Virus record (IMG/VR): IMGVR_UViG_3300001041_000055
Coordinates: 1-21,134 of that record
Strand: one strand, 5' to 3'
Source: a virus
DNA length: 21,134 nt
Under the pieces are notes generated by a model. That model had not been told where the DNA came from. It ran no database searches and worked only from the letters and a program-made list of their open reading frames with translations. Both the position numbers and the translations under genes were made by a program. The stretch's first letter is position 1. Each line of letters begins with the position of its first letter. This document shows, in pieces, positions 2,328-19,550 of the stretch.

Positions 2328-2357
2328 AACGGTATTTTAATAAGGAGGGAATAGTTG

Positions 2358-2834
2358 ATGGGCAACCAAAACGCACTTAGTCATTATGGAGTTTTGGGTA
2401 TGCATTGGGGTCGAACTGGTGCCGGCGCAAGCGTTAATCGAGTAGGCTCTAAACGTAAAGAAGCTAAGCAAGCCGCAAGAGAAGCTGCCGAGGCTAGGAA
2501 AAGTCCGGATCATAAAGAAGGACGAATCCTATATAATAAACCAGTTAGTGAAATGACAAATGATGAAATCATGAAACTAACCCGGCGGATTAATTTAGAA
2601 AAGCAGGTACGAGACATACATCCAAGCGCATACAAGAGGGGTATGAATATCGCTAAAGACATAACTGCTGCTGGAGTGACCATAGGGGGACTATATGCTC
2701 TGACACAAACACCAGTAGCTGGAAGAATTGCTAATGCTGGTTTGACCAAAAAGATTGTTAAACGGGCTGTTCAGTCGCCATTAGCTAAAGCTATCGCTAA
2801 AGCCGTAGCTAAAGCGGCCCTAAAAGTAGGGTAA
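2358..2834 (+). CDS. HYGVLGMHWG tag protein 1
   Basis: A 158-residue protein starting at ATG 2358, eight bases after AAGGAGGG; an in-frame TTG at 2355 is less well spaced. It opens with the tag LSHYGVLGMHWG (residues 7-18), a short N-terminal signature I know from many Bacillota phage structural clusters but whose function I do not know. A Lys/Ala-rich basic helix follows (about 30-50), then KPVSEMTNDEIMKLTRRINLE, also typical of tag-family proteins, a hydrophobic stretch near 102-120 (ITAAGVTIGGLYALTQT), and a C-terminal basic AKAIAKAVAKAALK repeat. It lies just before the large terminase. A head-internal or membrane-active virion protein is plausible but is inference. Confidence 0.75.
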   Translation: MGNQNALSHYGVLGMHWGRTGAGASVNRVGSKRKEAKQAAREAAEARKSPDHKEGRILYNKPVSEMTNDEIMKLTRRINLEKQVRDIHPSAYKRGMNIAKDITAAGVTIGGLYALTQTPVAGRIANAGLTKKIVKRAVQSPLAKAIAKAVAKAALKVG

Positions 2835-2858: not shown

Positions 2859-4604
2859 ATGGCTTTGTCAAATACAGCAACCCCAAAATATTATGCCATC
2901 TTTCGTGACGCTGTATTGCGAGGCGACATCCCCGTATGTAAAGAAATTTCTATGGAGATGAACCGAATTGACGAACTCATCGCAAACCCCGGAGTATATT
3001 ATGATGATAGAGCCGTCGATGGGTACGTCGATTTTTGCGATCACGAACTGACACTTACCGATGGGTCTGATCTATCACTATTAGACACTTTTAAGTTATG
3101 GGCCGAACAAGTATTCGGCTGGTATTACTATGTTGAGCGAAGTGTATATGTCCCCAGTAAGGACAATCATGGTGGTAAGTATGTACTTAAGATGATTAAG
3201 AAACGTCTTACAAGTAAACAGTATCTTATCGTTGCTCGTGGCGCAGCTAAGTCTATGTATGGTTCTAGCATTCAAAGTTTCTTCTTAAATGTCGACACCT
3301 CCACCACACATCAAATCACAACCGGTCCAACGATGAAACAAGCGGACGAAGTCATGTCCCCGATCAGGACCGCCATTACTCGTGCACGAGGACCACTGTT
3401 TGAATTCCTAACCGAAGGCTCATTACAAAACACCACAGGCTCTAGAGCCAATCGTGTTAAGTTAGCCTCAACCAAAAAGGGAATTGAGAACTTCCTTACG
3501 GGGTCAATCCTAGAAATAAGACCAATGAGCATCGACAAACTGCAAGGTCTTAGACCTAAGATCTCGACGGTCGATGAATGGCTTTCTGGTGACATCCGTG
3601 AGGACGTGGTCGGTGCGATTGAACAAGGGGCGTCCAAGTTAGATGATTATCTAATTATTGCTATGAGTTCAGAAGGGACAGTTCGTAACAGCAGTGGTGA
3701 TACAATCAAAATGGAACTAATGGACATTCTAAAGGGGGACTACATAAATCCCCACGTATCAATCTGGTATTATAAATTGGATACTATTGAAGAAGTCAAC
3801 GATCCGTCTATGTGGTTAAAGGCGAATCCCAATCTCGGTAAGACTGTCTCCTATGAAACCTATCAGTTAGACGTGGAGAGAGCAGAGAAAGCACCGGCGG
3901 CTAGGAATGATATTCTAGCTAAGAGATTCGGCATTCCGATGGAAGGGTATACGTATTTCTTCACCTACGAAGATACGTTGCCTCATCGACGACGTACGTT
4001 CTGGTCTCTACCTTGTGCTCTGGGCGCCGACTTCTCTCAAGGGGATGACTTCTGTGCCTTTACGTTTATGTTCCCTCTTAAGACTGGGTCATTTGGTGTA
4101 AAAACTCGCGCTTATATTACATCCCTAACCTTAATGAAATTACCTGGAGCTATGCGTACCAAATACGATCAGTTTATAAAAGAAGGCAGTCTTATCGTCC
4201 TCGATGGTACAGTTCTAGATATGATGGAAGTCTATGATGACGTGGATAAACACATAATTGATTCGGGTTATGATGTTCGTTGCTTTGGTTTTGACCCATA
4301 TAATGCGAAAGAGTTCGTTGCCAGATGGGAAGCTGAGAATGGACCATACGGAATTGAAAAAGTAATACAGGGATCGAAGACCGAGTCGGTTCCTCTAGGT
4401 GAACTTAAAATCTTAGCTGAAGAACGTATGCTTATATTTGATGAGGAGCTAATGTGTTTTGCTATGGGCAATAGTATAACTCTAGAGGATACAAATGGTA
4501 ATCGGAAGCTATTGAAGAAGAGGTACGAGCAAAAGATTGATAGTGTTTCCGCATTAATGGATGCCTATGTAGCATATAAAGCTAATAAAGATGAGTTTGA
4601 ATAG
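2859..4604 (+). CDS. terL: terminase large subunit
   Basis: A 581-residue DNA-packaging motor with an N-terminal ATPase and a C-terminal RNase H-like nuclease. The Walker A-like loop is ARGAAKS at residues 126-132 (Lys131, preceded by Arg127). Walker B is ISTVDEW, with Asp239/Glu240. Candidate nuclease acidic residues are Asp391 (GADFSQGDD), Asp479 (FGFDPYNA) and Asp568 (SALMDAY). The length suits an HK97-type (Terminase_1) enzyme. It docks on the portal to pump DNA into the prohead and cuts the concatemer. The ribosome binding site is weak (GAGAGTTGGA) compared with its neighbours, consistent with a motor needed in few copies. No small terminase is in the window. The gene's 3' end overlaps a short tag ORF starting at 4591. 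Confidence 0.95.
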   Translation: MALSNTATPKYYAIFRDAVLRGDIPVCKEISMEMNRIDELIANPGVYYDDRAVDGYVDFCDHELTLTDGSDLSLLDTFKLWAEQVFGWYYYVERSVYVPSKDNHGGKYVLKMIKKRLTSKQYLIVARGAAKSMYGSSIQSFFLNVDTSTTHQITTGPTMKQADEVMSPIRTAITRARGPLFEFLTEGSLQNTTGSRANRVKLASTKKGIENFLTGSILEIRPMSIDKLQGLRPKISTVDEWLSGDIREDVVGAIEQGASKLDDYLIIAMSSEGTVRNSSGDTIKMELMDILKGDYINPHVSIWYYKLDTIEEVNDPSMWLKANPNLGKTVSYETYQLDVERAEKAPAARNDILAKRFGIPMEGYTYFFTYEDTLPHRRRTFWSLPCALGADFSQGDDFCAFTFMFPLKTGSFGVKTRAYITSLTLMKLPGAMRTKYDQFIKEGSLIVLDGTVLDMMEVYDDVDKHIIDSGYDVRCFGFDPYNAKEFVARWEAENGPYGIEKVIQGSKTESVPLGELKILAEERMLIFDEELMCFAMGNSITLEDTNGNRKLLKKRYEQKIDSVSALMDAYVAYKANKDEFE

Positions 4605-4749
4605 GCGGGACGGTTATGTACGGGGAAGTGGAAACGAAATAAAGCACTTTGGCATTCTCGGTATGCACTGGGTGTTAGATCATCACAAAAAAGATATTCG
4701 AACATTAAGTAGTAAGGAGGCTAATAATAATGAATCAAGTTCAAAATGA
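4591..4749 (+). pseudogene. short tag gene (KHFGILGMHW) with a probable one-base frame disruption
   Basis: ATG 4591 lies inside the end of the terminase gene. The frame reads 52 codons to TGA 4747, through the tag IKHFGILGMHW, and then gives an unfamiliar polar tail overlapping the next gene's start. If one G is restored in the G run at 4670-4672, or the ribosome slips back one base there, the reading becomes HWGVRSSQKRYSNIK and stops at TAG 4710-4712, directly before the next gene's ribosome binding site. That fits the family's usual W-G ending and the local gene spacing, so a one-base deletion or sequencing error in an approximately 40-residue tag-only gene is likely. A programmed -1 shift is possible, but no classical slippery heptamer is present. 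It is too short to be recognised by length alone; the motif is the evidence. Confidence 0.55.
4714..4720 (+). promoter_or_regulatory. ribosome binding site of tag protein 2
   Basis: AAGGAGG nine bases before ATG 4730. It lies inside the current reading frame of the broken short tag ORF, but right after the stop codon of that gene's restored frame. Confidence 0.75.
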
Positions 4750-5218
4750 ATTAATGCATTATGGTGTTCTTGGTATGCATTGGGGTAAACGCAAAGCTCA
4801 AGCTAAAGCTTGGGGGAAAGAAGCCAAAACCACGATCAGGAATGGTATTAAGCATCCTAATTTAAGTAATCAGGCAAACCGAGCTTCTATGCGATCAGCC
4901 AGTACCAAAGACAAACTTAGACGATCATTTTTGTATCAAAGTACTAAGGACCTCAAAGATGTTAATGCTCGAGCTGCGGCATTGATAGCTGCTAAGCAAA
5001 TTAAAACTAAGCCAATTAAGAACATTGACAGTAAGAAAGTGGCCCTTGGCAAGTCTATTGTTCGTGGTACGCTACTCGGTACTCTGGCAGGGGTTGCTGT
5101 TATGGCAGTTACTAAAAACGAAAAAGCTGGCCAAGTGGCGTCAAATGCTGTGTTTGTGACTAGTGTTTTAAATTCTCGTAAGAAGTACTATGGTACCAAC
5201 CAACCAAGAAAAAAATAG
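4730..5218 (+). CDS. HYGVLGMHWG tag protein 2
   Basis: A 162-residue protein with the tag LMHYGVLGMHWGKRK at residues 8-22, nearly identical to the tag at 2358. The rest is basic (about residues 20-100) with a hydrophobic stretch near 107-124 (IVRGTLLGTLAGVAVMAV) and a Lys-rich C-terminus (KKYYGTNQPRKK). Outside the tag, similarity to tag protein 1 is limited to general design: tag, basic helical region, one hydrophobic segment, basic tail. It sits between terminase and portal with a strong ribosome binding site. Position, charge and tag suggest a virion or prohead component; the function is not known. Confidence 0.75.
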   Translation: MNQVQNELMHYGVLGMHWGKRKAQAKAWGKEAKTTIRNGIKHPNLSNQANRASMRSASTKDKLRRSFLYQSTKDLKDVNARAAALIAAKQIKTKPIKNIDSKKVALGKSIVRGTLLGTLAGVAVMAVTKNEKAGQVASNAVFVTSVLNSRKKYYGTNQPRKK

Positions 5219-5233
5219 TAAGGAGGTGCTGTT

Positions 5234-6490
5234 GTGGCGGAGTCAATGGGTACAAGACTTAAACATGCATGGAATGCTTTTAAGAACCGAGACCCTACGG
5301 AAGTTTATACCCAGCAAGGCCTAGGCTATTCGTCGTCATCTAGACCCGACCGAATAAAAGCATACACTACAAATGCTCGATCAGTTATTAGTGCGGTGTA
5401 TAGTCGTATCGCCTTGGATGTAGCATCGGTTACTATTCGACATGTGCGGCTAGATCAAAATGAGAGATTTGTTGAGACTATTTCTTCTGGACTAAATGAA
5501 TGTCTTACGTTAGAAGCAAATACGGATCAAACCAGTCGAGCGTTTGTTCAAGACATTATATTGTCGATGTTTGACGAAGGGGTTGTGGCCGTAGTTCCAG
5601 TGGAAACAACAGCAGACCCAACATTTTATGGGGCTTTTGATGTAAATAGTTTTAGAACTGGTCGTATCATAAACTGGTATCCTAAACATGTGCGCGTAAG
5701 ACTCTATAACGAGAGAACCGGGGCTCACGAAGAAATTACCCTACCCAAAAGTATGGTAGCTATAATTGAGAATCCGCTATATTCCGTTATGAATGAGCCC
5801 AACGGCACGTTAAAACGACTCATTAGGAAGTTGACGCTTCTGGATTCAATAGATGAGCAAAGTGGATCTGGTAAACTCGATCTAATAATTCAACTTCCGT
5901 ATGTTATTAAAACCGAAGCTAGGCGTGAACAAGCAGAGACACGCCGAATGGACATTGAAAGACAACTGTCTGGTAGTAAGTACGGTATCGCATATACCGA
6001 TGGTACCGAGCGTGTTACACAACTTAATCGTCCCGTCGAGAATACCCTTATGGACCAAGTTCAGTACCTAACGAGTATGCTGTATAGCCAGTTAGGATTA
6101 ACTGAAGATGTGTTCTCTGGTAAAGCCGATGAGAAGACTATGTTGAATTATAATAATAGAACTGTGGCGCCACTTCTGAATGCGATAATAGACGAGTTTA
6201 AGAGAAAATTCTTGACTAAAACCGCACGAACCCAGAAACAATCCATTATGTACTTCAAAGACACATTTAGCCTTGTTCCGGCTACTCAATTGGCGGAGAT
6301 CGCTGATAAGTTTACTAGGAATGAGATCCTATCGTCGAATGATTTCCGAGCCATACTCGGATACAAACCCGATCCTAATCCAAAATCGGATGCCCTAATT
6401 AATAAGAACATAGCGGACAAATCTTTAGCAAGTGGTCAAAGCTTTATTAACGCGGCCACCAATGCGAATCAAAATGGGGAGGAACAGTAA
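5234..6490 (+). CDS. portal protein (HK97 family)
   Basis: A 418-residue portal of the HK97/SPP1-type fold. It forms the twelve-subunit ring at the unique capsid vertex through which DNA enters and leaves. Support comes from family-like segments: an N-terminal arm, SVISAVYSRIALDVASVTIRH, the central NWYPKHVRVRLYN, the clip/stem region around QYLTSMLYSQLGLTEDVF, and a C-terminal part with a disordered Asn/Gln-rich tail. The position just after terminase and before protease-capsid fits. The start is GTG 5234, seven bases after AAGGAGGT (5219-5226); ATG 5246 is a poorer choice. Confidence 0.9.
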   Translation: MAESMGTRLKHAWNAFKNRDPTEVYTQQGLGYSSSSRPDRIKAYTTNARSVISAVYSRIALDVASVTIRHVRLDQNERFVETISSGLNECLTLEANTDQTSRAFVQDIILSMFDEGVVAVVPVETTADPTFYGAFDVNSFRTGRIINWYPKHVRVRLYNERTGAHEEITLPKSMVAIIENPLYSVMNEPNGTLKRLIRKLTLLDSIDEQSGSGKLDLIIQLPYVIKTEARREQAETRRMDIERQLSGSKYGIAYTDGTERVTQLNRPVENTLMDQVQYLTSMLYSQLGLTEDVFSGKADEKTMLNYNNRTVAPLLNAIIDEFKRKFLTKTARTQKQSIMYFKDTFSLVPATQLAEIADKFTRNEILSSNDFRAILGYKPDPNPKSDALINKNIADKSLASGQSFINAATNANQNGEEQ

Positions 6491-6491
6491 T

Positions 6492-8519
6492 ATGCCGAAT
6501 ACCAAATTTGACTTTAGTGGATATGCCACTAAAAACGGTCTTAGATGTGCCGATGGCCGCATAATTATTAAGGACGCATTTAAGCATCAAAGTGGTAAAA
6601 CAGTACCCTTAGTATGGCAGCATCTTCACAATGAACCTGCAAATATCCTCGGTCACGCTATTCTCGAGAATCGTGAAGACGGAGTCTATTGCTATGCGGT
6701 GTTTAATGACACTGAAGCAGGACAAAATGCAAAAGCACTAGTTGACCATAAGGATATTTCAGCCCTATCCATCCATGCCAATCAATTAAAACAAAAGGGT
6801 GCGGATGTGCTTCATGGCATGATTCGAGAAGTTAGTCTCGTTCTTGCAGGAGCTAATCCCGGTGCTTTGATTGATAATCTGAGCTTTGCCCATGGCGATG
6901 GTTCCTTTGTCGATGACGAAACCGAGGCTATTATCTATACGGGTCTTGAGTTTGAGCATGCTGATGGTGGATCAGAAATGACGCCAGAAATGATGATGAA
7001 AACGAAACCGGAAACGATGATGCGAATGATGTCTCGTATGATGTCTGAAATGACACCAGAAATGATTTTAAAAATGACGTCTGAAATGCCACCAGAAATG
7101 GTGTCTCGAATGATGTCTGACATTAATTCTGATGAGCAAAGAATGATGCATGCTGCTGGCGACGATAAGGCAACTGCCGACGAAAAAACATTAGGTGATG
7201 TATTTGACACCTTCACTGAGGAACAGAAAAATGTAGTTTATGCCCTTATCGCTAAGGCTATTGAGGGCGAGGATGAGGACGCCGGGGAAGATGATGTCCA
7301 ACACAACGACTCTGAGGACTCCGGAGAGAAAACCATCGCTGAGGTATTTGATACGCTCACCGAAGAACAGAAAAATGTGGTCTATGCAATGATTGCCCAT
7401 GCAGTTGACGGGGAAAACCTCGATCATGGTAATGATGAAGGAGATGTAAATATGAAAAACAACGTATTTGATAACACAGCCGAACAGGGTAATTCCGCAA
7501 ACACTCTCACTCACGATCAAATGAGCGAAATCGTTACTGATGCTAAACGTTTCGGTTCTTTGAAGGATAGCTTTATTTTCCATGCTACCGAATATGGCTT
7601 TGACCCAATCGATGTACTGTTCCCGGATGCTGTGTCAACCAATGTCAATGGTCCCGAAACTCTTAAGCGAGAGGACACCTGGGTTAGCATCGTTCTTGCA
7701 GAAGCAACTCATACTCCATTTGCCCGAATTAAGACCACTGTGGCCAACATTACTGCTGATGATGCTCGTGCTAAAGGTTATGTAACTGGTACACTTAAGA
7801 AAGACGAGATCATTCCGCTGCTTAAGCGCGTAACTACACCCACAACCATCTATAAGAAACAAAAGTTGGATCGCGATGACATGGTTGATATTACAGACTT
7901 TGATGTCGTAGTATGGCTTAAGAATGAAATGCGCGGAATGTTGAATGAAGAACTTGCCCGTGTTATTCTCGTTGGCGATGGACGATCTGCGGCAGACGAA
8001 GACAAAATTAATGAACTGAACATTCGTCCGATCGCTACGGACGACACCAGCATGTACATCCATCGGTCCATCATGCCGATCGCAACGACTCCTGACGAGA
8101 TGATCGACGAACTCATTCGCTCACGCAAGAACTATAAAGGTTCTGGTTCGCCGACTCTTTATACCTCTACAGACTTCCTGACGGATATGCTTTTAGTTAA
8201 GGATACGTTGGGTCGTCGCCTTTATAATAATGTATCCGAACTGGCATCGGTTCTTCGCGTCAGCAAGATCGTTGAAGTCGAGCCAATGAATTCAGCTGTC
8301 CGTGCAGCAACAGAGACCCAGTCCAATAACATTCTCGGTATTATCGTTAACCTGAAAGACTACACGATTGGCGCCGATAAGGGCGGTCAAGTTGCAATGT
8401 TCGATGATTTCGACATTGACTACAACCAATACAAATACCTGATTGAGACTCGCGTCTCCGGTGCGTTAACTAAGCCTAAATCGGCTATTGTTATCGAAAG
8501 AGCTGGAGCAATCGGATAA
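6492..8519 (+). CDS. prohead protease / delta domain / major capsid fusion protein
   Basis: A 675-residue polyprotein. Residues about 1-155 are an HK97-type (S78) prohead protease with candidate catalytic His44/His46 (WQHLHNEP), Ser93 (ISALSIHAN) and the conserved EVSLVLAGANPGA. Residues 162-219 are an odd Met-rich insert. Residues about 225-315 hold two copies of a scaffold-like motif (EVFDTLTEEQKNVVYAMIAH) joined by an acidic linker. From Met321 a full HK97-fold capsid protein follows (MKNNVFDN to the end, 355 residues). The start is ATG 6492, preceded by GGGGAGG and two bases after the portal stop; an upstream in-frame start at 6432 lies inside the portal gene and is rejected. An internal ribosome binding site before Met321 probably lets free capsid protein be made as well. 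The protease would cut the delta region after shell assembly. Confidence 0.9.
   Translation: MPNTKFDFSGYATKNGLRCADGRIIIKDAFKHQSGKTVPLVWQHLHNEPANILGHAILENREDGVYCYAVFNDTEAGQNAKALVDHKDISALSIHANQLKQKGADVLHGMIREVSLVLAGANPGALIDNLSFAHGDGSFVDDETEAIIYTGLEFEHADGGSEMTPEMMMKTKPETMMRMMSRMMSEMTPEMILKMTSEMPPEMVSRMMSDINSDEQRMMHAAGDDKATADEKTLGDVFDTFTEEQKNVVYALIAKAIEGEDEDAGEDDVQHNDSEDSGEKTIAEVFDTLTEEQKNVVYAMIAHAVDGENLDHGNDEGDVNMKNNVFDNTAEQGNSANTLTHDQMSEIVTDAKRFGSLKDSFIFHATEYGFDPIDVLFPDAVSTNVNGPETLKREDTWVSIVLAEATHTPFARIKTTVANITADDARAKGYVTGTLKKDEIIPLLKRVTTPTTIYKKQKLDRDDMVDITDFDVVVWLKNEMRGMLNEELARVILVGDGRSAADEDKINELNIRPIATDDTSMYIHRSIMPIATTPDEMIDELIRSRKNYKGSGSPTLYTSTDFLTDMLLVKDTLGRRLYNNVSELASVLRVSKIVEVEPMNSAVRAATETQSNNILGIIVNLKDYTIGADKGGQVAMFDDFDIDYNQYKYLIETRVSGALTKPKSAIVIERAGAIG
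6975..7149 (+). repeat. Met-rich degenerate tandem repeat in the protease linker
   Basis: Imperfect repeats of GAAATGACRCCAGAAATG and TCTCGWATGATGTCTGA encode residues 162-219, with 19 Met in 58 residues (SEMTPEM, SRMMSEM, SEMPPEM, SRMMSD). The section lies between the protease and the scaffold-like motifs. Confidence 0.8.
7438..7443 (+). promoter_or_regulatory. internal ribosome binding site for the free major capsid protein
   Basis: AAGGAG lies eight bases before the in-frame ATG at 7452 inside the protease-capsid gene. The protein from this ATG starts MKNNVFDN, like stand-alone capsid proteins of related phages. Internal initiation would supply capsid protein in excess over protease. Confidence 0.65.
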
Positions 8520-8718: not shown

Positions 8719-9001
8719 AACTATGCCTGGTGTTTGGGAAGAGACTAATATTGAGTATAACTACTCTGGAGATGTCATTCGAAACACCAGGAAGTGGCAA
8801 TCGGGAGAGAATCTTAATGACGACCTTGTGATTAATAACACGATTAGCATTATTTCCGACCCGTTTGCTAATCTGAACTTTCATGCTATGCGATACGTCG
8901 AATGGATGGGGGCTAAATGGAAAATAACTAACGTGGAAGTCCAAAGACCACGACTTATACTTTCGGTGGGAGGTGTATACACCAATGGGACAACGAGTTG
9001 A
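8675..9001 (+). CDS. head closure (neck) protein
   Basis: A 108-residue mainly beta protein beginning MGKFYGKIGYAV and containing YNYSGDVIRNTRKWQ, LNDDLVINNTISI and MRYVEWMGAKWKITNVEV. This is a common uncharacterised family found just after capsid genes in Bacillota siphophages, and the pattern resembles head-closure or stopper proteins. It should seal the connector and hold DNA until infection. ATG 8675 has AAAGGAG seven bases upstream; the longer frame from 8564 lies within the Cys-rich gene and is unlikely to be used. The gene overlaps its neighbours at both ends, by 44 and 17 bases. Confidence 0.75.
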   Translation: MGKFYGKIGYAVTSETMPGVWEETNIEYNYSGDVIRNTRKWQSGENLNDDLVINNTISIISDPFANLNFHAMRYVEWMGAKWKITNVEVQRPRLILSVGGVYTNGTTS

Positions 9002-9290
9002 CCTTCAGGTAATCCTTGAAGCTGTACTTGGTAACATGCATGTATATTATCAGCCTCCCCCGTCGGTAGTCATGCAGTATCCTTGTATTGTATACAGACG
9101 CGACTCTGTATCCGCCAAGTTTGCGGATGGCGTCCTATACAACCACAAAAAAAGGTATCAGGTAACGGTCATTGACAAGAATCCTGATAGTCTAATCCCA
9201 GATAAGGTCATGCTTCTACCGCTATGCTCATTCAGTACCCATTTCAAGAAAGACAATCTAAACCACGACGTGTACACATTATATTATTAA
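8985..9290 (+). CDS. tail terminator / tail completion protein
   Basis: A 101-residue protein with MGQRVDLQVILEAVLG, VYYQPPPSVVMQYPCIVY, KKRYQVTVIDKNPDSLIPDK and LNHDVYTLYY, a family found between head closure and tail tube genes. By size, order and alpha/beta pattern it probably caps the tail tube and joins it to the neck. ATG 8985 follows GGGAGGT by ten bases; an in-frame GTG at 8973 overlaps that ribosome binding site. The first 17 bases overlap the previous gene. Confidence 0.7.
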   Translation: MGQRVDLQVILEAVLGNMHVYYQPPPSVVMQYPCIVYRRDSVSAKFADGVLYNHKKRYQVTVIDKNPDSLIPDKVMLLPLCSFSTHFKKDNLNHDVYTLYY

Positions 9291-9305: not shown

Positions 9306-10259
9306 ATGGCTAAACTTATTTGGGATGAAGTTGGTAAAAAGTTCTATGAAACTGGTGTGAGTAATGGGGTTCTCTACCCCCAGGATACAAATGGCGTTTA
9401 TCCGCTAGGCGTCGTTTGGAACGGTCTAACGGCTGTTACCGAAAGTCCTTCTGGGGCAGAACCGACTCCTATTTATGCCGATAACATCAAGTATCTTAAT
9501 CTGATGTCCGCCGAGGAATTTGGGGCCACGGTAGAAGCCTACACATATCCTGACGAGTTTGCGATTTGTGATGGATCAGCAGAACTATCAGTTGGGGTAA
9601 TGGTTAATCAGCAGCTCCGAAAAGGATTTGGTCTCAGTTATCGAACTGAACTCGGCAATGATACTGCCGGTAGCGAACACGGTTATAAGTTACATTTGAT
9701 TTATGGTGCTATGGCAGCTCCTTCGGAGAAGGGCTATGCTACAGTTAACGATGCTCCTGAAGCCATCACGTTTTCATGGGCAGTAACTACGACTCCGGTA
9801 GAAGTTACTGGGAAAAGACCAACGGCATCCTTAACAATTGACTCCACAAAAGTGGACTCGACCAAACTTGCCACACTTGAGTCAATTATTTATGGTAGTG
9901 TTGGCGTCGATCCACGTCTTCCATTCCCAGATGAAATCGCAGCTATATTTGGATCTGAAGCACCAACAACACTAGCGTTGACTATTGTTCCTGCTGACGC
10001 AGCTACAGCGGTTGTTGTTTCTGCGGACGTTGTTCTCACGTTCAATAACAAAATAGCCGCTTCGTCAATCGTTCTAACCTCACAAGCTGGAGTGCTCGTA
10101 GCAGCAACGAAGACTTGGGACGTTGCTGGAAAAGTACTCACTATCGATCCAACAGTCAACCTTACAGCGGCTACGTCTTATCTTGTTGTGATTAGTTTGG
10201 CGACCGATATCTATGGTCAAACACTCGCTCCTGTGGTCAAGAAATTCACGACTGCTTAA
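9306..10259 (+). CDS. major tail tube protein with C-terminal Ig-like domain
   Basis: A 317-residue protein. Residues 1 to about 215 are a tail tube protein: MAKLIWDEVGKKFYETGVSNG, YADNIKYLNLMSAEEFGATVE, and RPTASLTIDSTKVDSTKLATLE near residues 168-189. Residues about 222-317 form a SbsA-type Ig-like domain (Big_5): IVPADAATAVVVSADVVLTF, then SYLVVISLATDIYG and a final KKFTTA. The tube part stacks into hexameric rings around the tape measure; the Ig-like domain would project outward along the tail, where such domains are thought to bind surface sugars weakly. AAAGGAGG lies nine bases before ATG 9306. An intrinsic terminator follows, as suits the most abundant tail protein. Confidence 0.88.
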   Translation: MAKLIWDEVGKKFYETGVSNGVLYPQDTNGVYPLGVVWNGLTAVTESPSGAEPTPIYADNIKYLNLMSAEEFGATVEAYTYPDEFAICDGSAELSVGVMVNQQLRKGFGLSYRTELGNDTAGSEHGYKLHLIYGAMAAPSEKGYATVNDAPEAITFSWAVTTTPVEVTGKRPTASLTIDSTKVDSTKLATLESIIYGSVGVDPRLPFPDEIAAIFGSEAPTTLALTIVPADAATAVVVSADVVLTFNNKIAASSIVLTSQAGVLVAATKTWDVAGKVLTIDPTVNLTAATSYLVVISLATDIYGQTLAPVVKKFTTA

Positions 10260-10269
10260 TTAATTGGTC

Positions 10270-10286
10270 CTGTGCTAATAACACAG
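10270..10286 (+). other. small stem-loop after the tail tube gene
   Basis: CTGTG and CACAG form a 5-bp perfect stem with a 7-base AT-rich loop, in the 96-base gap after the tail tube stop codon. It has no T-run, so it is not a terminator by itself; it may protect the transcript end or be chance. Confidence 0.3.
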
Positions 10287-10305
10287 TCTAAACGCCTCCT
10301 CAACT

Positions 10306-10339
10306 GGGTTCTCTGAAATATGAGAGCCCTCTTTTATTT
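10306..10339 (+). terminator. intrinsic terminator after the tail tube gene
   Basis: GGGTTCTC (10306-10313) pairs with GAGAGCCC (10322-10329), eight pairs including one G-T, around an 8-base loop, followed by TCTTTTATTT. No clear promoter follows, so it is more likely a partial terminator or RNA-processing hairpin lowering expression of downstream genes. Confidence 0.75.
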
Positions 10340-10355
10340 AGAAAGGATGGAAATA

Positions 10356-11342
10356 ATGGAAAATTTAACCGCTTCTCAAATTCGGCATATCACCCATCTT
10401 AATATGAACTCGCCTGAGGGTTTTGGTGCCAAAATTCAAGAAATGATCACTGCTATAAATAGTGGATATACCACTTCGGGCACTCCTGTGAATGCAGCGA
10501 ACGCGGCAAAAACCCTGGCGGTAACAGGCGTTGTTATTGATGGTGAAACGGTAACGATTAATAATCCCGCCATTGCAGGCGTTGACGTTTATGAATTCTT
10601 AGCCGATACCGCCCAGACTAAAACTACTCCAACAAATATTCCGGTTAATATCACAGCGTCAACAACTAAATCATCTATAGTATTAACCGTGGATACACAA
10701 CCGACGGTTACCGATACGATGACCATCGGGACAAAGGTGTATACTTTTGTTGCTGATGGTACTGCCGCTGTGGATGGAGAAATCAATATTGGTACAGATT
10801 TACCAAGTGCTAAAATCGCGATCGTTGCCGCTATAAACGGAACTGACGCATTTAACCCTCCACACCCATTGGTAACCGCTGGGGTATTCGTAGTAAACGA
10901 TTGTGCCATCACTGCATTAGTAGGCGGTGTCGCCGGAGACACTATTGCTACTACTGAAACATTTAATGCCGTGACAAATGTCTTTGGTGCTGTTACTCTA
11001 GGATCAGGAGCAGATTGCATAGCCGCTAATGCAATAACGGCTCTTGTCGCAGCCATTACCGCATCTGATACCCAAGGAGTAGGTGCTGTTGATGGCGCTG
11101 GAGACACGGTGGATTTAACTGCGGACGTCGCAGGCGTTATTGGTAACGCTATTATTATTGGCGAAACCATGACTAATGGAGCTTTCACAGCCGGTGCCCT
11201 TTTACTAACAGGTGGAATAGACGGTACGGTTGGTGTTGCTGGTCAAGGAATGGCGGACGCTACCTACCTATACAAACTTGTGGCCGATAATACTACATCC
11301 GGCAAAAACTGGCGCCGTATTTCTCTTGGGACGGCCTATTAA
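10356..11342 (+). CDS. repeat-containing putative virion protein
   Basis: A 328-residue Ala/Thr/Val-rich beta protein with no signal peptide. A short helical N-terminus (TASQIRHITHLNMNSPEGFG) is followed by two copies of a beta unit of the form TVTINNPAIAGVDVYEFLAD (about 70-89) and TMTIGTKVYTFVADG (about 135-150). Further Gly/Ala-rich beta repeats follow (DTIATTETFNAVTNVFGAV; VIGNAIIIGETMTNGAFTAG), and it ends with a compact GKNWRRISLGTAY cap. Units like TIGTKVYTFV occur in phage tail and decoration proteins. It lies between tail tube and chaperone genes as a unit with its own terminator, so a tail-decorating or fibre-like protein is plausible. ATG 10356, nine bases after GAAAGG, is chosen; earlier in-frame ATGs (10320, 10347) overlap the terminator or the ribosome binding site. 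Confidence 0.75.
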   Translation: MENLTASQIRHITHLNMNSPEGFGAKIQEMITAINSGYTTSGTPVNAANAAKTLAVTGVVIDGETVTINNPAIAGVDVYEFLADTAQTKTTPTNIPVNITASTTKSSIVLTVDTQPTVTDTMTIGTKVYTFVADGTAAVDGEINIGTDLPSAKIAIVAAINGTDAFNPPHPLVTAGVFVVNDCAITALVGGVAGDTIATTETFNAVTNVFGAVTLGSGADCIAANAITALVAAITASDTQGVGAVDGAGDTVDLTADVAGVIGNAIIIGETMTNGAFTAGALLLTGGIDGTVGVAGQGMADATYLYKLVADNTTSGKNWRRISLGTAY

Positions 11343-11357
11343 TTAGCCCTCCTACTT

Positions 11358-11388
11358 GGGCTCTCTGTAACATGAGGGCCCTCTTTTT
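11358..11388 (+). terminator. intrinsic terminator, near-copy of the one at 10306
   Basis: GGGCTCTC (11358-11365) pairs with GAGGGCCC (11374-11381), eight pairs including one G-T, around the loop TGTAACAT, followed by TCTTTTT. The surrounding 50 bases match the earlier terminator closely, including a CCTCCT just upstream. Confidence 0.8.
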
Positions 11389-11412
11389 AATTTGAAAGGG
11401 GACCATGATACC

Positions 11413-11793
11413 ATGTTAAAGAAGAAAATTACCTATGAAGATTATGATGGGAACACAAGAACTGAGGATTTCTACTTCAATCTTAATAAAGCCGAACTAA
11501 CAGAGATGGAGATGTCCCACAATGGTGGTTTAGTGAAGACTATCGAAAGTATTATCGCCGCAGAGGATACTAAACGGGTTATCGAGATCTTCAAAGATCT
11601 AATCCTCAAGGCCTATGGTGAGAAGTCTGTTGATGGGAAGCGGTTTAAGAAAAGTCAAGAGATCAGTGATTCTTTCGCCCAGACTGAAGCATATAGTGTT
11701 CTATTTATGGAGCTGGCTACGAATGCCGACTCTGCCGCAGCTTTTGTTAACGGGATTACTCCCACAATCGCACAGCCAAAATTAACAGTATAG
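11413..11793 (+). CDS. tail assembly chaperone (gpG-like)
   Basis: A 126-residue acidic, mostly helical protein with YEDYDGNTRTEDFYFNLNKAE at the N-terminus and KTIESIIAAEDTKRVIEIFKD, LILKAYGEKSVDGKRF and FAQTEAYSVLFMELATNADS after it. This is a well-known chaperone family encoded before tape measure genes in Bacillota phages; it coats the tape measure and recruits tube subunits, and is absent from the finished tail. ATG 11413 has AAAGGGGA about ten bases upstream; an in-frame TTG at 11392 lies before that site. The following gene has its own ribosome binding site, so a lambda G/GT-type frameshift fusion is not evident. Confidence 0.85.
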   Translation: MLKKKITYEDYDGNTRTEDFYFNLNKAELTEMEMSHNGGLVKTIESIIAAEDTKRVIEIFKDLILKAYGEKSVDGKRFKKSQEISDSFAQTEAYSVLFMELATNADSAAAFVNGITPTIAQPKLTV

Positions 11794-12382: not shown

Positions 12383-12760
12383 ATGATTACGTTCAAACAA
12401 AGCGGAGACTTTAAGAATACTGACAGATTTCTTAAAATAGCCGAAAGACTTGACTACTTAGATATACTAAAAAAGTACGGACAAATGGGTGTTTTAGCTC
12501 TTGCTTCGGCCACCCCTGTTGATACTGGTTTGACAAGTCAGTGCTGGGATTATCAGATAAAGATATCCAAAGGTACTTTGAAAATATATTGGACCAACTC
12601 GAATGCTGTGGACGGAGTCCTTATTGCCATACTTTTACAATACGGGCATGGTACTAAAAACGGAAGTTACGTACAAGGACGAGACTATATAAATCCGGCA
12701 ATTCAATCTGTGTTTGATGGCTTTGCAGATGAAGCATGGAAGGAGGTAACCCAAAAATGA
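12383..12760 (+). CDS. gp10-like phage protein (minor capsid / tail completion family)
   Basis: A 125-residue protein with YLDILKKYGQMGVLALASAT, PVDTGLTSQCWDYQI, IAILLQYGHGTKNGSYVQGRD and a C-terminal AFDGFADEAWKEV-like segment (FDGFADEAWKEV). The PVDTG...W and QYGHGT patterns are typical of HK97 gp10-like neck proteins, though here the gene lies directly before the tape measure rather than with the other neck genes. The start is ATG 12383, after AGAGGTGA; the GTG at 12374 overlaps that site. Its stop overlaps the tape measure start as ATGA (12757-12760), so the two are likely translationally coupled. Confidence 0.72.
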   Translation: MITFKQSGDFKNTDRFLKIAERLDYLDILKKYGQMGVLALASATPVDTGLTSQCWDYQIKISKGTLKIYWTNSNAVDGVLIAILLQYGHGTKNGSYVQGRDYINPAIQSVFDGFADEAWKEVTQK

Positions 12761-15700
12761 ACGCTGTTGATACTCGCATTATAGAAATGCAGTTTAAAAA
12801 TGAACATTTTCAAGCTAATGTACAAGATAGTATGCAGGCAATTGAGGGTCTAAAAAAAGGACTTAATTTAGACGCCGCAACTAAAGCACTACAAGGCCTT
12901 CAAATCACTGGTGATAATTTCTCTTTAGCGGGAATAGGCGCAGGAGTGCAACAGCTCGTCGATAGGTTCTCGACTATGGGTATTGCCGGTATGACTGTGA
13001 TTCACAATCTTACTAATGCCGCTATCGATATGAGCGGAAAATTAGCGGGCGCTATAACTGGACCCCTCATTGAAGGTGGTAAAAAGAGAGCACTGGCTAT
13101 AGCCCAAGCTAAGTTCCAATTCGAAGGTCTTGGTATGGATATAGAAGCCACGATGAAAAATGCAAATGATGCAGTAAGCGGGACTGCGTATGGTCTTGCC
13201 GACGCTGCGATGGTAGCTTCTCAGCTCGGAGCATCCGGCATGAGAGCCGGAGACGCAATGTACTCGTCCTTGAGAGCTGTTTCAGGTGTCGCGGCAATGA
13301 CTGGTAGGGAATATTCTGATATAGGTCGAATCTTTGTAGGGGTCGCTGGTAATGGGCGACTAATGGGTAACGATCTTTTACAACTATCGAGTAGCGGGGT
13401 TAATGCGGCAGCAACTCTGGCTAAAGCTTTAAATAAAACTGAAGCTGAAGTTCGGGAGATGGTGAGCGATGGTAAGATCAGTTTCAAAATATTCTCAGAT
13501 GCTATGGACGATGCTTTTGGGGCACATGCTAAAGATGCTAATAAACTATTTACCGGAGCACTAGCTAATGTAAAATCGGCTTTGGGTCGTATAGGCGCAG
13601 ACGTAGCCGCTGTGGCATTCGATAATCTACGTGACATTTTAAACGCGTTACGACCGGTTATCAATAATGTACATACGGCTCTTAAACCGTTGATTGGTGT
13701 ATTTAATACCGTTACTACTGGATTAAGCAAAGGGATCATTGATAAATTAGATATCAAAAATTTTGGACCATTAGTAAATGTACTTCAGTCAGTACACAAT
13801 GTCACTAAAGGCTTATATAGCATTTTAAAACCCATCAAAGATGCTTTTCAAGAGATCTTTCCAGCAGCAACTGTCACTCAACTGTTATTCTTTACGGGCG
13901 GACTCAAGGATCTAACCGATAAATTCAAAATGGGAGACACACAAGCCTCCAATATTAAAGACACATTCAAGGGAGTATTCGCCGTACTAAATACGGGTTT
14001 ACTAATCCTCCTTGCATTCGGCAAAGCTGTAGCTTACATGGCAGCCCCTTTACTACCAATAGCAGATAGACTACTGTATATAACAGCTGCCATTGGTCGA
14101 TTCCTTGTAGCAGTAGACCAATCAGTAAAGTCTTCTACTATATTTAACGAAGCGATTACTTTTCTAGCATCAGTTATAACCCCGGTCGCTAACTTTATTG
14201 CTGACGCACTGACGGCCTTGACAGAGGCATTCAAAGCTCTATGGAACAACGATGCCGGTGACGGAGATAAGTTTACAGGTAGAGTGTCCGCTAGGTTTGC
14301 TGGATTAAACAAAGTACTTGACTTATTACATCAAGCCCTATCTAAACTAGTTACGGCGTTTAAAACTATGTTCCCCGTGTTTGGTAAGCTTGCCACTATT
14401 GCCGGTGAAGCACTTAATCAGTTCGGAGACATCATACTAAACACCCTCAAAGCCGGTAACTTTAAAGCTATATTTGACATGATAAACGGAACCTTGTTTG
14501 CAGGCATACTAATCGGACTAAACAAGTATATATATTCCATAACGAACATAGCAACCAAGGGTGGCTTCTTACAAAACATTACCGGAGTCTTTAACGGAGT
14601 CAGAGCCAGTCTTAGATTGTGGCAGCAAGAGTTACAAGCAAAAATAATAAAGAGTATCGCGATTTCTATTGCTATTTTGGCTGCGGCTTTAGTTGCTATT
14701 TCGTTAATCGATTCGGAAAAACTAACTTCTTCATTGGTAGCCATAGGTACTTTACTGACTGAGCTATTCGTGGCTATGGGTCTGCTTGGCAAAATTGCTG
14801 GAGGACCTGGTATAATCGCTACGTTCAAGCTAATCGCAGCCATGCAAGGACTAGGCATCGCCATTCTTATTCTAGCTGTCGCTATGGGAAAATTAGCAAA
14901 ACTCAATTGGGAAGAAATAGCCAAAGGTCTTACCGCTATAGCTGCGCTTTGTGTAATATTAGTCGCCACCTCAGCAGGGCTTTCAAAAGCGTCGTCTAAA
15001 ATGGTATCCAGTAGTGTAGGTCTTATATTATTTGCGGTTGCGTTAAACATGCTTGCTGACGCAGTTATAAAATTAGGAGCTATTGATATGAAGTCTCTAG
15101 CTAAAGGTTTAGGCTCAGTTGGTGTGCTGGTTCTTGAGTTAGGTATATTTATGAAGTTGACAAGCGGTAAAGGTATGGGTCTAAGTAGCAGCCTCGGACT
15201 TATTGCTCTGGCTCAGGCTATAATTATGTTAGCAACTGCCGTAACAGCATTTGCAGCATTAGACGTTAATACATTAATCAAGGGTTTAGGTGCAGTTGTT
15301 ACAGTTCTTCTTGAACTTGCTATATTTACTAAGCTTACAGGCAACGCTAAGAACGTAATCGCTACAGCCCTTGGGTTACTGATTCTGGGACAAGCAATGC
15401 TTATATTTGCCCAAGCCATTGGCGTTCTTGGAAATATGTCCGTTGAACAACTCCAAAAAGGTCTACTTGCAATGGCGGGAGCATTGGCTGCAGTAACTAT
15501 TGCCGTTAGATTAATGCCTAAAGGAATGGTATTCACAGGCGTTGGGCTTATAGCCATCGCGGCTGCCTTGGTTATTCTATCAAGAGCATTACAAACTATG
15601 GGTGGTATGACGTGGGACGAGATCGCCAGAGGTCTTACTGTATTGGGTGGTGCGTTAATTATCATCGCGGCGACAATGGCCTTAATGACAACGTCCTTAG

Positions 15701-18700
15701 CAGGCGCTGCAGCATTGTTAATTATTTCAGGGGCCCTTACCGTCTTAGCGACAGTCATGCAAACATTAGGAGCAATGTCCTTAGCTCAAATTGGTAAAAG
15801 TCTGATTGCTTTAGTGGGCGTATTTGCGGTACTAGGATTATCCGCTCTTATTTTAGCGCCGTTAGTTCCCGTGTTACTAGCACTTGGCGCAGCAGTACTA
15901 CTTTTAGGCATTGGGTGTCTGGCCGTCGGGGCTGGATTAACCTTATTTTCGGTAGCGTTGACAGCTCTCAGTGTAGCTTTAACTGCTAGTGGTGGAGCAA
16001 TTGCACTATTCATCACAAGTATCGTTGGATTACTACCTATGCTTCTTTCCCAGTTACGCGTGACGCTTGTGACTCTATGTGAAGTCTTAGCGGCTACAGC
16101 ACCAGCATTTGTCGACGCATTGGTAATTGTAGTTTCAGCCCTTGTAGACGGGCTCATACGAATAATACCTAAACTATTAGAGGGACTATCGGTCGTTCTA
16201 AAATCAGTATTAGATTTTCTCGTTAAGTCTATACCCATGATAGTGGATGCGGGCATGAAGTTGGTTATGGGTCTACTTAAGGGCATTCTAGACAATATCG
16301 GTAAGATATTGGTGGTTGGAACTCTAATAATCATAGAATTCTTAAAAGGTGTGGCTGATAAACTCCCGGCGGTGATTCAAGCAGCCTTCGAAGTTATTAT
16401 TAGTTTTATCAACGGATTAGCCGACGCAATCAGAACTAACGGCGCGGAAATAACTAGTGCTGTAGGTAATCTTGTTGATGCTATTATTGGCGCTATTGGC
16501 GGAGCAATTGATAAATTCATAGAGGCTGGCGGAAATTTGATCGGCGGATTCATTAAAGGGATGAGAGATAAGATTTCTGACGCTGCTTCTTTCGCTGCAA
16601 ATATGGGTGCCACTGTACTGCAAGCGGCTAAGAACGCTTTAGGTATTCGTTCGCCGTCTAAATATTTCGACAAAGAAGTAGGACAAATGGTTGGCGTAGG
16701 TATGGCTAACGGACTAAAAGCCAGCACCTCGGAAGCAGTTGGTGCTGGAGATGCTATGTCTAAAGCAGTATATGATAACGCTACGGACGCACGCATAAAA
16801 GCCGAACACGAAGCCTATCGAAGTCAAAATGATGTGTATGCTAGTCAAAAAGATATGGCTAAAAAAGAACAAGCTATCGGTAAAACGAAACAAGCCCAAG
16901 GTCAATCCAACTTCGATAAGTCAATTGAATGGATCGATGAGCATAAGTATTACAACACTTTAAGCTTACAAGAGGAGCTCGCTGCTTGGCAAAAGATTCA
17001 GAAAACATATTCAGAAGGATCGGAGGAACGGAAAAAAGCAGACAGAGAAGTCTATAGACTGCGAAAAGAAATGGTCAGTGCTGAGTTTAACGCAATGGTT
17101 AAAAACATGGATGATCTAAAATACTATAAAAAGTTAAGTGTGGCTGACGAACTTGCGACGTGGGAAGCTGCCCAGAAAAAATATTTAGACGGTACAGATG
17201 AACGGATACGAGCGGACAAAGAAGTTTATAGAATTAAGGACCAAATCCGAAAAGATGATTTTGATGTGGGCGTCAAAACGATTGACGAGTATAAGTATTA
17301 TAACAAGTTGGGTTTAGAAGACGAACTTTATGCGTGGCAAAGACTTCAAAAAAAACATGCCAATGGGTCCGATGAACGGATACGAGCGGACAAAGAAGTT
17401 TATCGAATTGAACAAAACATAAATGACCTTAATGAATCATATTCGCAACGTAGTCTGGATCTTGAGACAAGTATAAATGATGAACGTATGCGTCTTGAAG
17501 ATGAGTATTATGCTAAAACCCAATCCACTAACGAAAAGTTAATAGCTGATATTGCAAGCGTGAACAAAGAGTACGAAGATGCTCTTGACTCTCGCAGTAA
17601 AACAATATACGGCACGTACGGTTTATTTGATAAGGTTGCTTCCAAAAAACGAGTTAGTGGAGTGTCTCTAATCAAAAACTTGCAGTCTCAAGCTGCTGAT
17701 TTAAATGAGTGGAGACAAAGTCTTACCGATTTATCCAGAAAGGGAATTAGTTCCGACTTAATTGACGAACTCAAAGCGATGGGTCCTTCTGCTTCAGCTC
17801 AAATTGCAGCGTTAAACACCCTAAGTGCGTCAGAACTGACTACGTACGTATCCTTATGGCAAAACAAACACCAAGATGCAAAAACCCAAGCCGTGGCCGA
17901 ACTCAAAGATATGCGTTCGAGCACCGTAAGTCAAATATCCACGTTAAAGAAAGAAGCATCAAAAGAATTAACTAGCTATAGGACTATGTGGAACGACCAA
18001 ATGGTAGCTTTAAATGCTGACGCGGATGTACAATTATCAGCCTTGAATTCGGAATGGTCGACCAAACTCGGAACATTAAGAACTGCATCTCAAACCGAAT
18101 TCAAGGCTATGTCCACTGACATTGCAACGACCGTTACTGAGTTACGAGTCAATGTTGAAACCGAATTTACGACCCTTGCAAGCGGCATTCAAACGGTAAT
18201 GTCCGCGCCTGATTGGGCTGGCGTCGGTATAAACATTATACAAGGCATGATTAACGGCATAAACAGTAAGTCCGCGGCCCTAGCACAAGAAGTAGCAAGG
18301 ACTGCCTTACAGGCATTGAACTCTGCCAAAAGCGCTTTAGGTATTAAATCGCCGTCTAAAGCATTTGAAGAAGTGGGTATGTACTCAGCTCTAGGGTTTG
18401 CTGGCGGTTTAAAGGCTTATTCGGACGTAGCTAGTGTAGAGGCCGTCAACGTGGGTAAACGGGCTGTATCGGCCCTCACAGGAGCTGTAGCAGGTATCGC
18501 AGATATCATAAATAGTGACATGGACATACAGCCGACCATTAGACCTGTCTTGGATTTGACGGATGTTAGTTCAGGGCTTAGTTCTGCTTTCAACAAGAGT
18601 CAATCGATCAATGTTGGTAGCATTACAAGTAAGACTGCGAGTATTTCAAATCTAGACGCTAACCGCAGAATGAATGCTAATCAAAATGGAAGTAATACCA

Positions 18701-18852
18701 CGGTTACGAATAGTACTCCTGAGTCAAATGTTAGTGGATTAGTGTTAAAAATTGAAAACTTCATCAATAACCGAGCACAAGACACTAAGGCCCTCATGGA
18801 GGAACTTGAGTTCTATCGTAAACAAGTAGTAATCGGAAGGGGCGGTAACTAA
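12757..18852 (+). CDS. tail tape measure protein
   Basis: A 2031-residue protein. It fixes tail length and is thought to be ejected ahead of the DNA. Residues about 120-260 match the tape-measure N-terminal domain (GTAYGLADAAMVASQLGASG; GNDLLQLSSSGVNAAATLA). Residues 634-1035 hold seven hydrophobic repeats of about 59 residues with the anchor [LM]-x-W/V-x-E-x-x-KGL. More hydrophobic and amphipathic segments follow to about 1240. Two GI[KR]SPSK modules (about 1257-1323 and 1821-1889) flank three exact-period 58-residue charged repeats (1389-1556) and a coiled-coil Lys/Glu/Ala-rich region. ATG 12757 follows AAGGAGG by ten bases and overlaps the upstream stop. At about 1.5 angstrom per residue, the tail could be up to roughly 300 nm, an upper estimate. 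Confidence 0.95.
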   Translation: MNAVDTRIIEMQFKNEHFQANVQDSMQAIEGLKKGLNLDAATKALQGLQITGDNFSLAGIGAGVQQLVDRFSTMGIAGMTVIHNLTNAAIDMSGKLAGAITGPLIEGGKKRALAIAQAKFQFEGLGMDIEATMKNANDAVSGTAYGLADAAMVASQLGASGMRAGDAMYSSLRAVSGVAAMTGREYSDIGRIFVGVAGNGRLMGNDLLQLSSSGVNAAATLAKALNKTEAEVREMVSDGKISFKIFSDAMDDAFGAHAKDANKLFTGALANVKSALGRIGADVAAVAFDNLRDILNALRPVINNVHTALKPLIGVFNTVTTGLSKGIIDKLDIKNFGPLVNVLQSVHNVTKGLYSILKPIKDAFQEIFPAATVTQLLFFTGGLKDLTDKFKMGDTQASNIKDTFKGVFAVLNTGLLILLAFGKAVAYMAAPLLPIADRLLYITAAIGRFLVAVDQSVKSSTIFNEAITFLASVITPVANFIADALTALTEAFKALWNNDAGDGDKFTGRVSARFAGLNKVLDLLHQALSKLVTAFKTMFPVFGKLATIAGEALNQFGDIILNTLKAGNFKAIFDMINGTLFAGILIGLNKYIYSITNIATKGGFLQNITGVFNGVRASLRLWQQELQAKIIKSIAISIAILAAALVAISLIDSEKLTSSLVAIGTLLTELFVAMGLLGKIAGGPGIIATFKLIAAMQGLGIAILILAVAMGKLAKLNWEEIAKGLTAIAALCVILVATSAGLSKASSKMVSSSVGLILFAVALNMLADAVIKLGAIDMKSLAKGLGSVGVLVLELGIFMKLTSGKGMGLSSSLGLIALAQAIIMLATAVTAFAALDVNTLIKGLGAVVTVLLELAIFTKLTGNAKNVIATALGLLILGQAMLIFAQAIGVLGNMSVEQLQKGLLAMAGALAAVTIAVRLMPKGMVFTGVGLIAIAAALVILSRALQTMGGMTWDEIARGLTVLGGALIIIAATMALMTTSLAGAAALLIISGALTVLATVMQTLGAMSLAQIGKSLIALVGVFAVLGLSALILAPLVPVLLALGAAVLLLGIGCLAVGAGLTLFSVALTALSVALTASGGAIALFITSIVGLLPMLLSQLRVTLVTLCEVLAATAPAFVDALVIVVSALVDGLIRIIPKLLEGLSVVLKSVLDFLVKSIPMIVDAGMKLVMGLLKGILDNIGKILVVGTLIIIEFLKGVADKLPAVIQAAFEVIISFINGLADAIRTNGAEITSAVGNLVDAIIGAIGGAIDKFIEAGGNLIGGFIKGMRDKISDAASFAANMGATVLQAAKNALGIRSPSKYFDKEVGQMVGVGMANGLKASTSEAVGAGDAMSKAVYDNATDARIKAEHEAYRSQNDVYASQKDMAKKEQAIGKTKQAQGQSNFDKSIEWIDEHKYYNTLSLQEELAAWQKIQKTYSEGSEERKKADREVYRLRKEMVSAEFNAMVKNMDDLKYYKKLSVADELATWEAAQKKYLDGTDERIRADKEVYRIKDQIRKDDFDVGVKTIDEYKYYNKLGLEDELYAWQRLQKKHANGSDERIRADKEVYRIEQNINDLNESYSQRSLDLETSINDERMRLEDEYYAKTQSTNEKLIADIASVNKEYEDALDSRSKTIYGTYGLFDKVASKKRVSGVSLIKNLQSQAADLNEWRQSLTDLSRKGISSDLIDELKAMGPSASAQIAALNTLSASELTTYVSLWQNKHQDAKTQAVAELKDMRSSTVSQISTLKKEASKELTSYRTMWNDQMVALNADADVQLSALNSEWSTKLGTLRTASQTEFKAMSTDIATTVTELRVNVETEFTTLASGIQTVMSAPDWAGVGINIIQGMINGINSKSAALAQEVARTALQALNSAKSALGIKSPSKAFEEVGMYSALGFAGGLKAYSDVASVEAVNVGKRAVSALTGAVAGIADIINSDMDIQPTIRPVLDLTDVSSGLSSAFNKSQSINVGSITSKTASISNLDANRRMNANQNGSNTTVTNSTPESNVSGLVLKIENFINNRAQDTKALMEELEFYRKQVVIGRGGN
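14656..15861 (+). repeat. seven hydrophobic ~59-residue repeats in the tape measure
   Basis: Each unit has a Leu/Ala-rich helix (for example LGLIALAQAIIMLATAVTAF), a short [LMI][DSNT]-x-x-x-[LI]-x-[KR]GL turn-helix, and a second Leu/Val-rich helix. The anchor Leu codons lie at 14734, 14929, 15109, 15286, 15463, 15634 and 15802, i.e. spacings of 65, 60, 59, 59, 57 and 56 codons. Confidence 0.85.
16525..16725 (+). repeat. GIRSPSK module, copy 1, in the tape measure
   Basis: A roughly 67-residue module with GGNLIGGFIKGM, AAKNALGIRSPSKYF and VGQMVGVGMANGLKAS. A second copy lies at about 18217-18423. Confidence 0.75.
17197..17229 (+). repeat. 33-base perfect direct repeat, copy 1
   Basis: Encodes DERIRADKEVY and is identical base for base to 17371-17403, 174 bases downstream, inside the tape measure triplicate. 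Confidence 0.95.
17371..17403 (+). repeat. 33-base perfect direct repeat, copy 2
   Basis: Second copy of the repeat at 17197-17229. Perfect DNA identity implies recent duplication or gene conversion. Confidence 0.95.
18217..18423 (+). repeat. GIKSPSK module, copy 2, in the tape measure
   Basis: Contains GVGINIIQGMINGIN, SAKSALGIKSPSKAF and VGMYSALGFAGGLKAYS, parallel to the module at 16525. The two bracket the charged repeat and coiled-coil section. Confidence 0.75.
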
Positions 18853-19550
18853 TGGTCTATTTACACGAAGAGCCATATTTTATATACAACAGGATTTCAA
18901 GTAAAGATATGGGTATTTTGGTGAATACATTACCGCCCATCATCAAGGTCAATAGGGACATTAACAAGATAGTTATACCCGGTAGAGATGGTTTTTTAAC
19001 GGAGGACTTTGGGACTTATAGTAGTATGGTTAAGTCGTGTGAATGCACACTCTTAGATATTGCTGAGGTTGATAAAGTCTTAGCATGGTTGGATGGCTCC
19101 GGAGATGTTATTTTCTCCGACCAACCAGACCGAAAATACAAGGCTAGTATAATCAATCAAATACCATTCGAACGAATTATGCGACAGTGGCACAAATTCA
19201 TTGTCATATTTGATTGTCAGCCGTTTCCCTTGTCGGTCGAGAATTCGGAGATTACACTGACTGTCCCCAGTGCTCTGATTAACGTAGGAACCTGCACAAG
19301 CAAACCCATATTCAAAGTCTATGGCACCGGAACCATCGATCTCGATATTAACGGTAACGTGATTCATCTCACAAACGTTGTGGGTCACGTTACGATAGAT
19401 AGTGATCTGATGGACTGCTATAAGGATACTGTACTTAAGAACAACGACATGTCGGGTGATTTCCCCGAATTAGTCGTCGGTCAAAACTCTATTAGTTGGA
19501 CGGGAACAGTTACTTCAGTTGTAATAACTCCTAATTGGCGGTGGATGTAA
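18852..19550 (+). CDS. distal tail protein (Dit)
   Basis: A 232-residue protein of the siphophage Dit/tail-family type, with the N-terminal DMGILVNTLPPIIKVNRDIN followed by IVIPGRDGFLTEDFGTYSSM, SGDVIFSDQPDRKYKASI and the W-containing core FERIMRQWHKFIVIFDCQPFP. A jelly-roll-like beta C-terminal part ends in ITPNWRWM. Dit forms a hexamer at the tail tip linking the tube to Tal. The start overlaps the tape measure stop by one base (TAATG), with GGAAGGGGCGG upstream. Cellulose- or sugar-binding insertions found in some larger Dits are absent. Confidence 0.88.
   Translation: MVYLHEEPYFIYNRISSKDMGILVNTLPPIIKVNRDINKIVIPGRDGFLTEDFGTYSSMVKSCECTLLDIAEVDKVLAWLDGSGDVIFSDQPDRKYKASIINQIPFERIMRQWHKFIVIFDCQPFPLSVENSEITLTVPSALINVGTCTSKPIFKVYGTGTIDLDINGNVIHLTNVVGHVTIDSDLMDCYKDTVLKNNDMSGDFPELVVGQNSISWTGTVTSVVITPNWRWM

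Follow-up and report, generated by a model that had tools for sequence, protein, structure and literature searches.

The window analysed here, a 21,134-base stretch of a 24,891-base virus record, carries the head and tail gene cluster of a siphophage (Table 1). Between the genes for the major tail protein (MTP) and the tail assembly chaperone (TAC) lies a gene of 328 codons, designated gene X, which is bracketed by two similar hairpins. The prophages named in genome records as the closest relatives of this phage reside mostly in Bacillota, so the host probably belongs to that phylum. The ORF that occupies the interval between terminase and portal shares the N-terminal motif HYGVLGMHWG with another ORF of the window (2355-2834), and the same motif begins small genes adjoining terminase and portal in relatives.

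Table 1. Genes and RNA-level features of the window, in order of position
Feature	Positions	Strand	Evidence or remark
Large terminase	2859-4604		
Terminase-portal interval	4605-5233	+	usual site of X in relatives; holds ORF 4730-5218 here instead
Portal	5234-6490		
Head protease	6432-8519		
Tail terminator	8973-9290		
MTP, C-terminal Ig-like Big_5 domain	9306-10259	+	phrog_2645, E 4e-104; Pfam Big_5
Small hairpin CTGTG-CTAATAA-CACAG, separate intergenic module	10270-10286	+	directly before TAC in three related phages
CCTCCT lead of hairpin 1	10295-10300	+	sequence
Hairpin 1 (hp1), 8-pair stem, octaloop UGAAAUAU	10306-10329	+	conserved post-MTP hairpin
T-rich tail of hp1, TCTTTTATTT	10330-10339	+	
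Gene X, virion-protein-like, 328 aa	10356-11342	+	relatives mostly between large terminase and portal
CCTCCT lead of hairpin 2	11348-11353	+	sequence
Hairpin 2 (hp2), 8-pair stem, octaloop UGUAACAU	11358-11381	+	second copy, only in this phage
T-rich tail of hp2, TCTTTTTAAT	11382-11391	+	
TAC (TAC_17), usual next gene after the post-MTP hairpin	11413-11793	+	Pfam PF23803, E 2.5e-42
Tape measure	12736-18852		
Dit	18852-19550		

The hairpins belong to a direct repeat (D2, 10305-10335 and 11357-11387) whose copies are identical at 27 of 31 positions, and a simple base model yields an expectation of about 4e-6 for such a pair arising by chance in the 3.6 kb region. All eight base pairs are intact despite the four differences between the hairpins (GGGUUCUC[UGAAAUAU]GAGAGCCC in hp1, GGGCUCUC[UGUAACAU]GAGGGCCC in hp2), two of which are U-G/C-G and U-A/U-G exchanges in the stem while the other two fall in the loop, at positions variable across the wider hairpin family; this preservation of pairing suggests that both copies are under selection. 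An independent contig (L261/L269) with 99.9% identity carries the identical hairpin-X-hairpin arrangement, indicating that the duplication is not an assembly error. The near-identical hairpins with CCTCCT leads and T-runs that a preliminary description had placed on either side of one gene are thus borne out, as is its remark that no obvious promoter follows either hairpin: promoter-like matches number 50 in the window against 46.3 in shuffled sequence, and none of them stands out. With regard to the form of an intrinsic (Rho-independent) terminator, both hairpins are stable, with eight pairs of which five to six are G-C (isolated folds of -14.5 kcal/mol, z -2.8, for hp1 and -15.9 kcal/mol, z -2.3, for hp2), and a U-rich run lies directly 3' of each stem. 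They rank at the top of the terminator-like sites of the window, each with eight pairs and a T-rich tail, although such a scan alone is no evidence, as it counts 15 sites against a shuffled mean of 15.0. Neither the window nor any of 12 related or octaloop-bearing loci matched an Rfam family at the gathering score.

Comparison with relatives revealed that a hairpin at this place is the rule. Across about 100 relatives the MTP-TAC gap has a median of 86 nt, compared with 6-22 nt for well-sampled neighbouring gaps and 61-122 nt for two further gap classes represented by only 6-9 sequences, and its predicted folding is stable (mean z -2.93; below -2 in 76% of 98 gaps). In most relatives this gap contains a single hairpin but no gene. 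Genomes of this kind, for which the preliminary description had proposed a search, are numerous, and the pattern that would have spoken against its interpretation, a gene always retained between unrelated flanks, is not what the relatives show. Trained on 18 hairpins, a covariance model gave one strong match per genome, directly after MTP, in 1.7 Mb of loci, and two strong matches only in this phage. In the hairpin alignment (A1), 93% of the stem cells are paired and 7 of 10 pairs have changed on both sides, a degree of pairing that none of 500 shuffles equalled on four of five measures. Since the members of A1 were picked by loop pattern, the loop conservation inside it partly follows from that choice. 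When loci were collected solely by protein similarity, regardless of loops, the octaloop was still the commonest hairpin loop near gene ends, found in about 10 of 95 cases against 1 of 403 elsewhere, with one of the roughly ten probably a coding coincidence. The hairpins belong to a family whose stem varies and covaries while the octaloop, C[UGNRANAY]G, is conserved.

The same loop was also found in unrelated phages. Exact matches to CCCTCTGAAATAYGRGGG, which represents one of the two stem classes scanned for, numbered 52 in viral contigs; they are mostly intergenic and mostly stand just behind a stop codon. Each of them has one or more additional stem pairs and 50 have two or more, compared with 2 stretches, neither with a further pair, for a scrambled-loop control of equal composition on the same stem. 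Two sets of candidates were set aside: among the matches listed from a first pattern scan, most had no stem extension and many lay in repeated, apparently coding families, and the CTGAAACATG hairpins of L043, L329 and L346 lie, judged from sequence, inside the start of the portal gene. Among 45 dereplicated octaloop hairpins with at least seven pairs, 41 have a same-strand gene end no more than 60 nt upstream (median 15 nt), and 12 have an opposite-strand gene end downstream. The genes upstream include those for major head proteins (L383, L412, L400, L388, L211), MTPs (L364, L365, L401) and ssDNA-binding proteins (L379, L251); only part of the upstream genes in unrelated phages could be identified, so the rule that the hairpin follows a highly expressed gene is a partial one.

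The T count in the 8 bases after the octaloop stem is 4.25, against 3.11 before it, and at least five T are present after the stem in 23 of 53 octaloop hairpins. Given these sparse tails, some octaloop hairpins may not be intrinsic terminators, and because U-rich tails are enriched without being universal, some members may protect 3' ends instead of terminating. An account in which no termination takes place at all, and the hairpins shield or set the 3' end of the upstream mRNA as a barrier to 3'-exonucleases after processing, is possible but somewhat unlikely; the placement right after the stop codon (median 15 nt) and the copies lacking a U tract agree with it, but U-rich tails, which a pure stabiliser would not need, follow both copies in the window and roughly half of the family members. 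It also has a precedent in the CUUCGG hairpins, which recur in phage intergenic regions (Tuerk et al. 1988, via PMC8948821) and of which a T4 example reportedly stabilises the gene 32 transcript (PMC8948821). As described there, these hairpins resemble ours in being recurrent and intergenic with a free stem and a fixed loop, whereas the loop here is C[UGNRANAY]G, not C[UUCG]G, and our hairpins stand mainly just after gene ends. The window loops, UGAAAUAU and UGUAACAU, do not contain C[UUCG]G, and the pair was accordingly rejected as a member of that type. BLAST searches of named phages with short queries also found post-capsid hairpins in Leuconostoc LN34 and Cellulophaga phi17:1, whose loops differ from the octaloop.

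It is unlikely that the hairpins are plain intrinsic terminators whose loop is common only by inheritance or by exchange of DNA among related phages. Exchange does contribute, since hairpin type changes 12 times on the weakly resolved MTP tree against 14.4 times when shuffled, so that some of the sharing is transfer; hairpin type seems to be swapped almost freely among relatives, and the MTP-TAC gap is a reshuffled region. However, the stems around one loop differ strongly, as in L322, where the octaloop sits on a wholly different inner stem, and the matches in unrelated phages, with the nearly empty scrambled-loop control, also speak against this reading. Our hairpins share with intrinsic terminators the G+C-rich eight-pair stem, the immediate U-rich run and the position just after a gene, but differ from them in the conserved loop, which terminators do not require, and in that some family members have no U run. 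Host terminators were also considered as the source of the hairpin and rejected: the octaloop pattern had 0 matches in 1,184 bacterial genomes from three taxonomic groups (about 3.7 Gb), which is only moderate evidence given how rare the pattern is.

Gene X itself has no Pfam or PHROG match. Its relatives match tail and fibre families. The predicted structure of X is confident (pLDDT 92.6) and has domains in common with tail, sheath and other virion proteins, and the middle of X matches a domain from the major tail protein of a Xanthomonas phage; X is therefore probably a virion surface protein. The usual site of X, in most relatives with known context, is between terminase and portal; exceptions lie before MTP (L279-281) and between portal and protease (L306), and the order MTP-X-TAC occurs only in this phage among the relatives examined. 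This distribution marks X as a newcomer in the MTP-TAC gap, and we infer that X moved into the gap and not the reverse; the tree of X is too poorly resolved for dating the move. Morons, or gene cassettes, are extra genes located between conserved phage genes with a promoter and a terminator of their own. X resembles them in standing between two conserved genes, with its own terminator-like hairpin behind it, and it is absent from the MTP-TAC site in all relatives examined; unlike a moron, it belongs to a family widespread in this phage group whose usual site is elsewhere, and no promoter of its own was seen.

The preliminary description had offered, as an alternative, a cassette inserted by recombination between the repeats. 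The insertion stands, in that X, with its usual site between terminase and portal, looks like a newcomer here. Recombination with the hairpins as joints, by contrast, is unproven and decidedly unlikely. The occurrence of X at this site in this phage alone would fit such an event, as would the reshuffling of hairpin types and of the CTGTG module among relatives and the presence of other genes in the MTP-TAC gap of some relatives. At its other locations, however, X has no such hairpin in its flanks, the genes inserted in the gap of other relatives usually have a hairpin on one side only, and no donor was found in which X stands between two hairpins. The hp2 variant was likewise found nowhere else: its pattern, CTCTCTGTAACAYGRGRG, matches only this phage and three places without an extended hairpin. 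The CTGTG module, CTGTGCTAATAACACAGTCT (10270-10289), has a narrow distribution among viral contigs: it was found after MTP in this phage, before TAC in three related phages, and in no others. Tandem second MTP-like genes are present between MTP and TAC in L009, L028 and L128, and such an arrangement is a possible route to a duplicated hairpin.

It is very improbable that the hairpins control translation, with the ribosome binding sites of X and TAC pairing to the CCTCC leads or to the U tracts: predicted folds of the full gaps include such pairings, but the CCTCC pairing already raised in the preliminary description is not conserved, with CCTCC present in only 9 of 98 MTP-TAC gaps, and a U tract facing a purine-rich ribosome site pairs almost automatically.

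Phages need hundreds of copies of the tail-tube protein and few of the tape measure, both encoded in one operon. We consider it probable (roughly 0.72) that the duplicated post-MTP hairpin acts as a partial terminator or 3'-end element, that X moved into the gap, and that expression consequently falls in two steps. The hairpin is a conserved phage RNA element, normally present once after the MTP gene, at which most transcripts would end, or to which they would be trimmed back and by which they would then be protected, leaving far more tail tube mRNA than chaperone and tape-measure mRNA. In this lineage X would have entered the gap, and the hairpin now exists in two copies, one of them behind X. 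With no promoter evident behind either copy, hp2 would lower expression a second time, from X to the chaperone and tape-measure genes (MTP > X > TAC/tape measure). The two copies, the pairing of their stems, the single hairpin of the relatives, the usual site of X and the recurrence of the loop are direct observations; termination, the mRNA step-down and a special role for the loop are what we infer. Most likely the hairpins of the family are partial terminators or 3'-end hairpins that lower mRNA levels after highly expressed genes, and the step-down by partial terminators suggested in the preliminary description is plausible, as position, conservation and U-rich tails all fit it.

The octaloop hairpin, with its conserved loop, free stem and post-gene position, had no counterpart in Rfam, and the literature searched contained nothing on a C[UGNRANAY]G loop. 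In the boxB element of the lambda nut site a short stem carries a five-base GNRA-like loop; boxA lies upstream, and the site works with an N-like protein. The UGNRANAY variation would fit either a GNRA-like or a T-loop fold, in which respect it resembles boxB; the window loops have eight bases, and the hairpins stand after genes, not in a leader. Conservation of the loop across unrelated phages with a free stem points to recognition or to a special fold beyond that of a terminator. Tentatively, C[UGNRANAY]G may be an undescribed, widespread phage motif whose loop is bound by a host RNA polymerase factor, a nuclease or a ribosome-associated protein, which sets the output of abundant-protein genes in unrelated phages and is copied when a new virion gene needs an expression step. 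A recognisable hairpin after the genes of abundant proteins would make expression control readable from sequence, and its duplication here would represent a natural case of an inserted gene bringing its own expression step.

Two further hairpins were observed. In an apparent RNA-phage contig with levivirus-like upstream ORFs, an octaloop hairpin is present on the reverse strand (L249:1459), where a chance occurrence is possible. A second recurrent hairpin type is found in the MTP-TAC gap of 22 of 122 dereplicated relatives (including L036, L038, L132, L325, L328, L330 and L341), with a conserved G[UAUU]CAG...CUG[G]C inside a varying outer stem and often with a U-rich tail.
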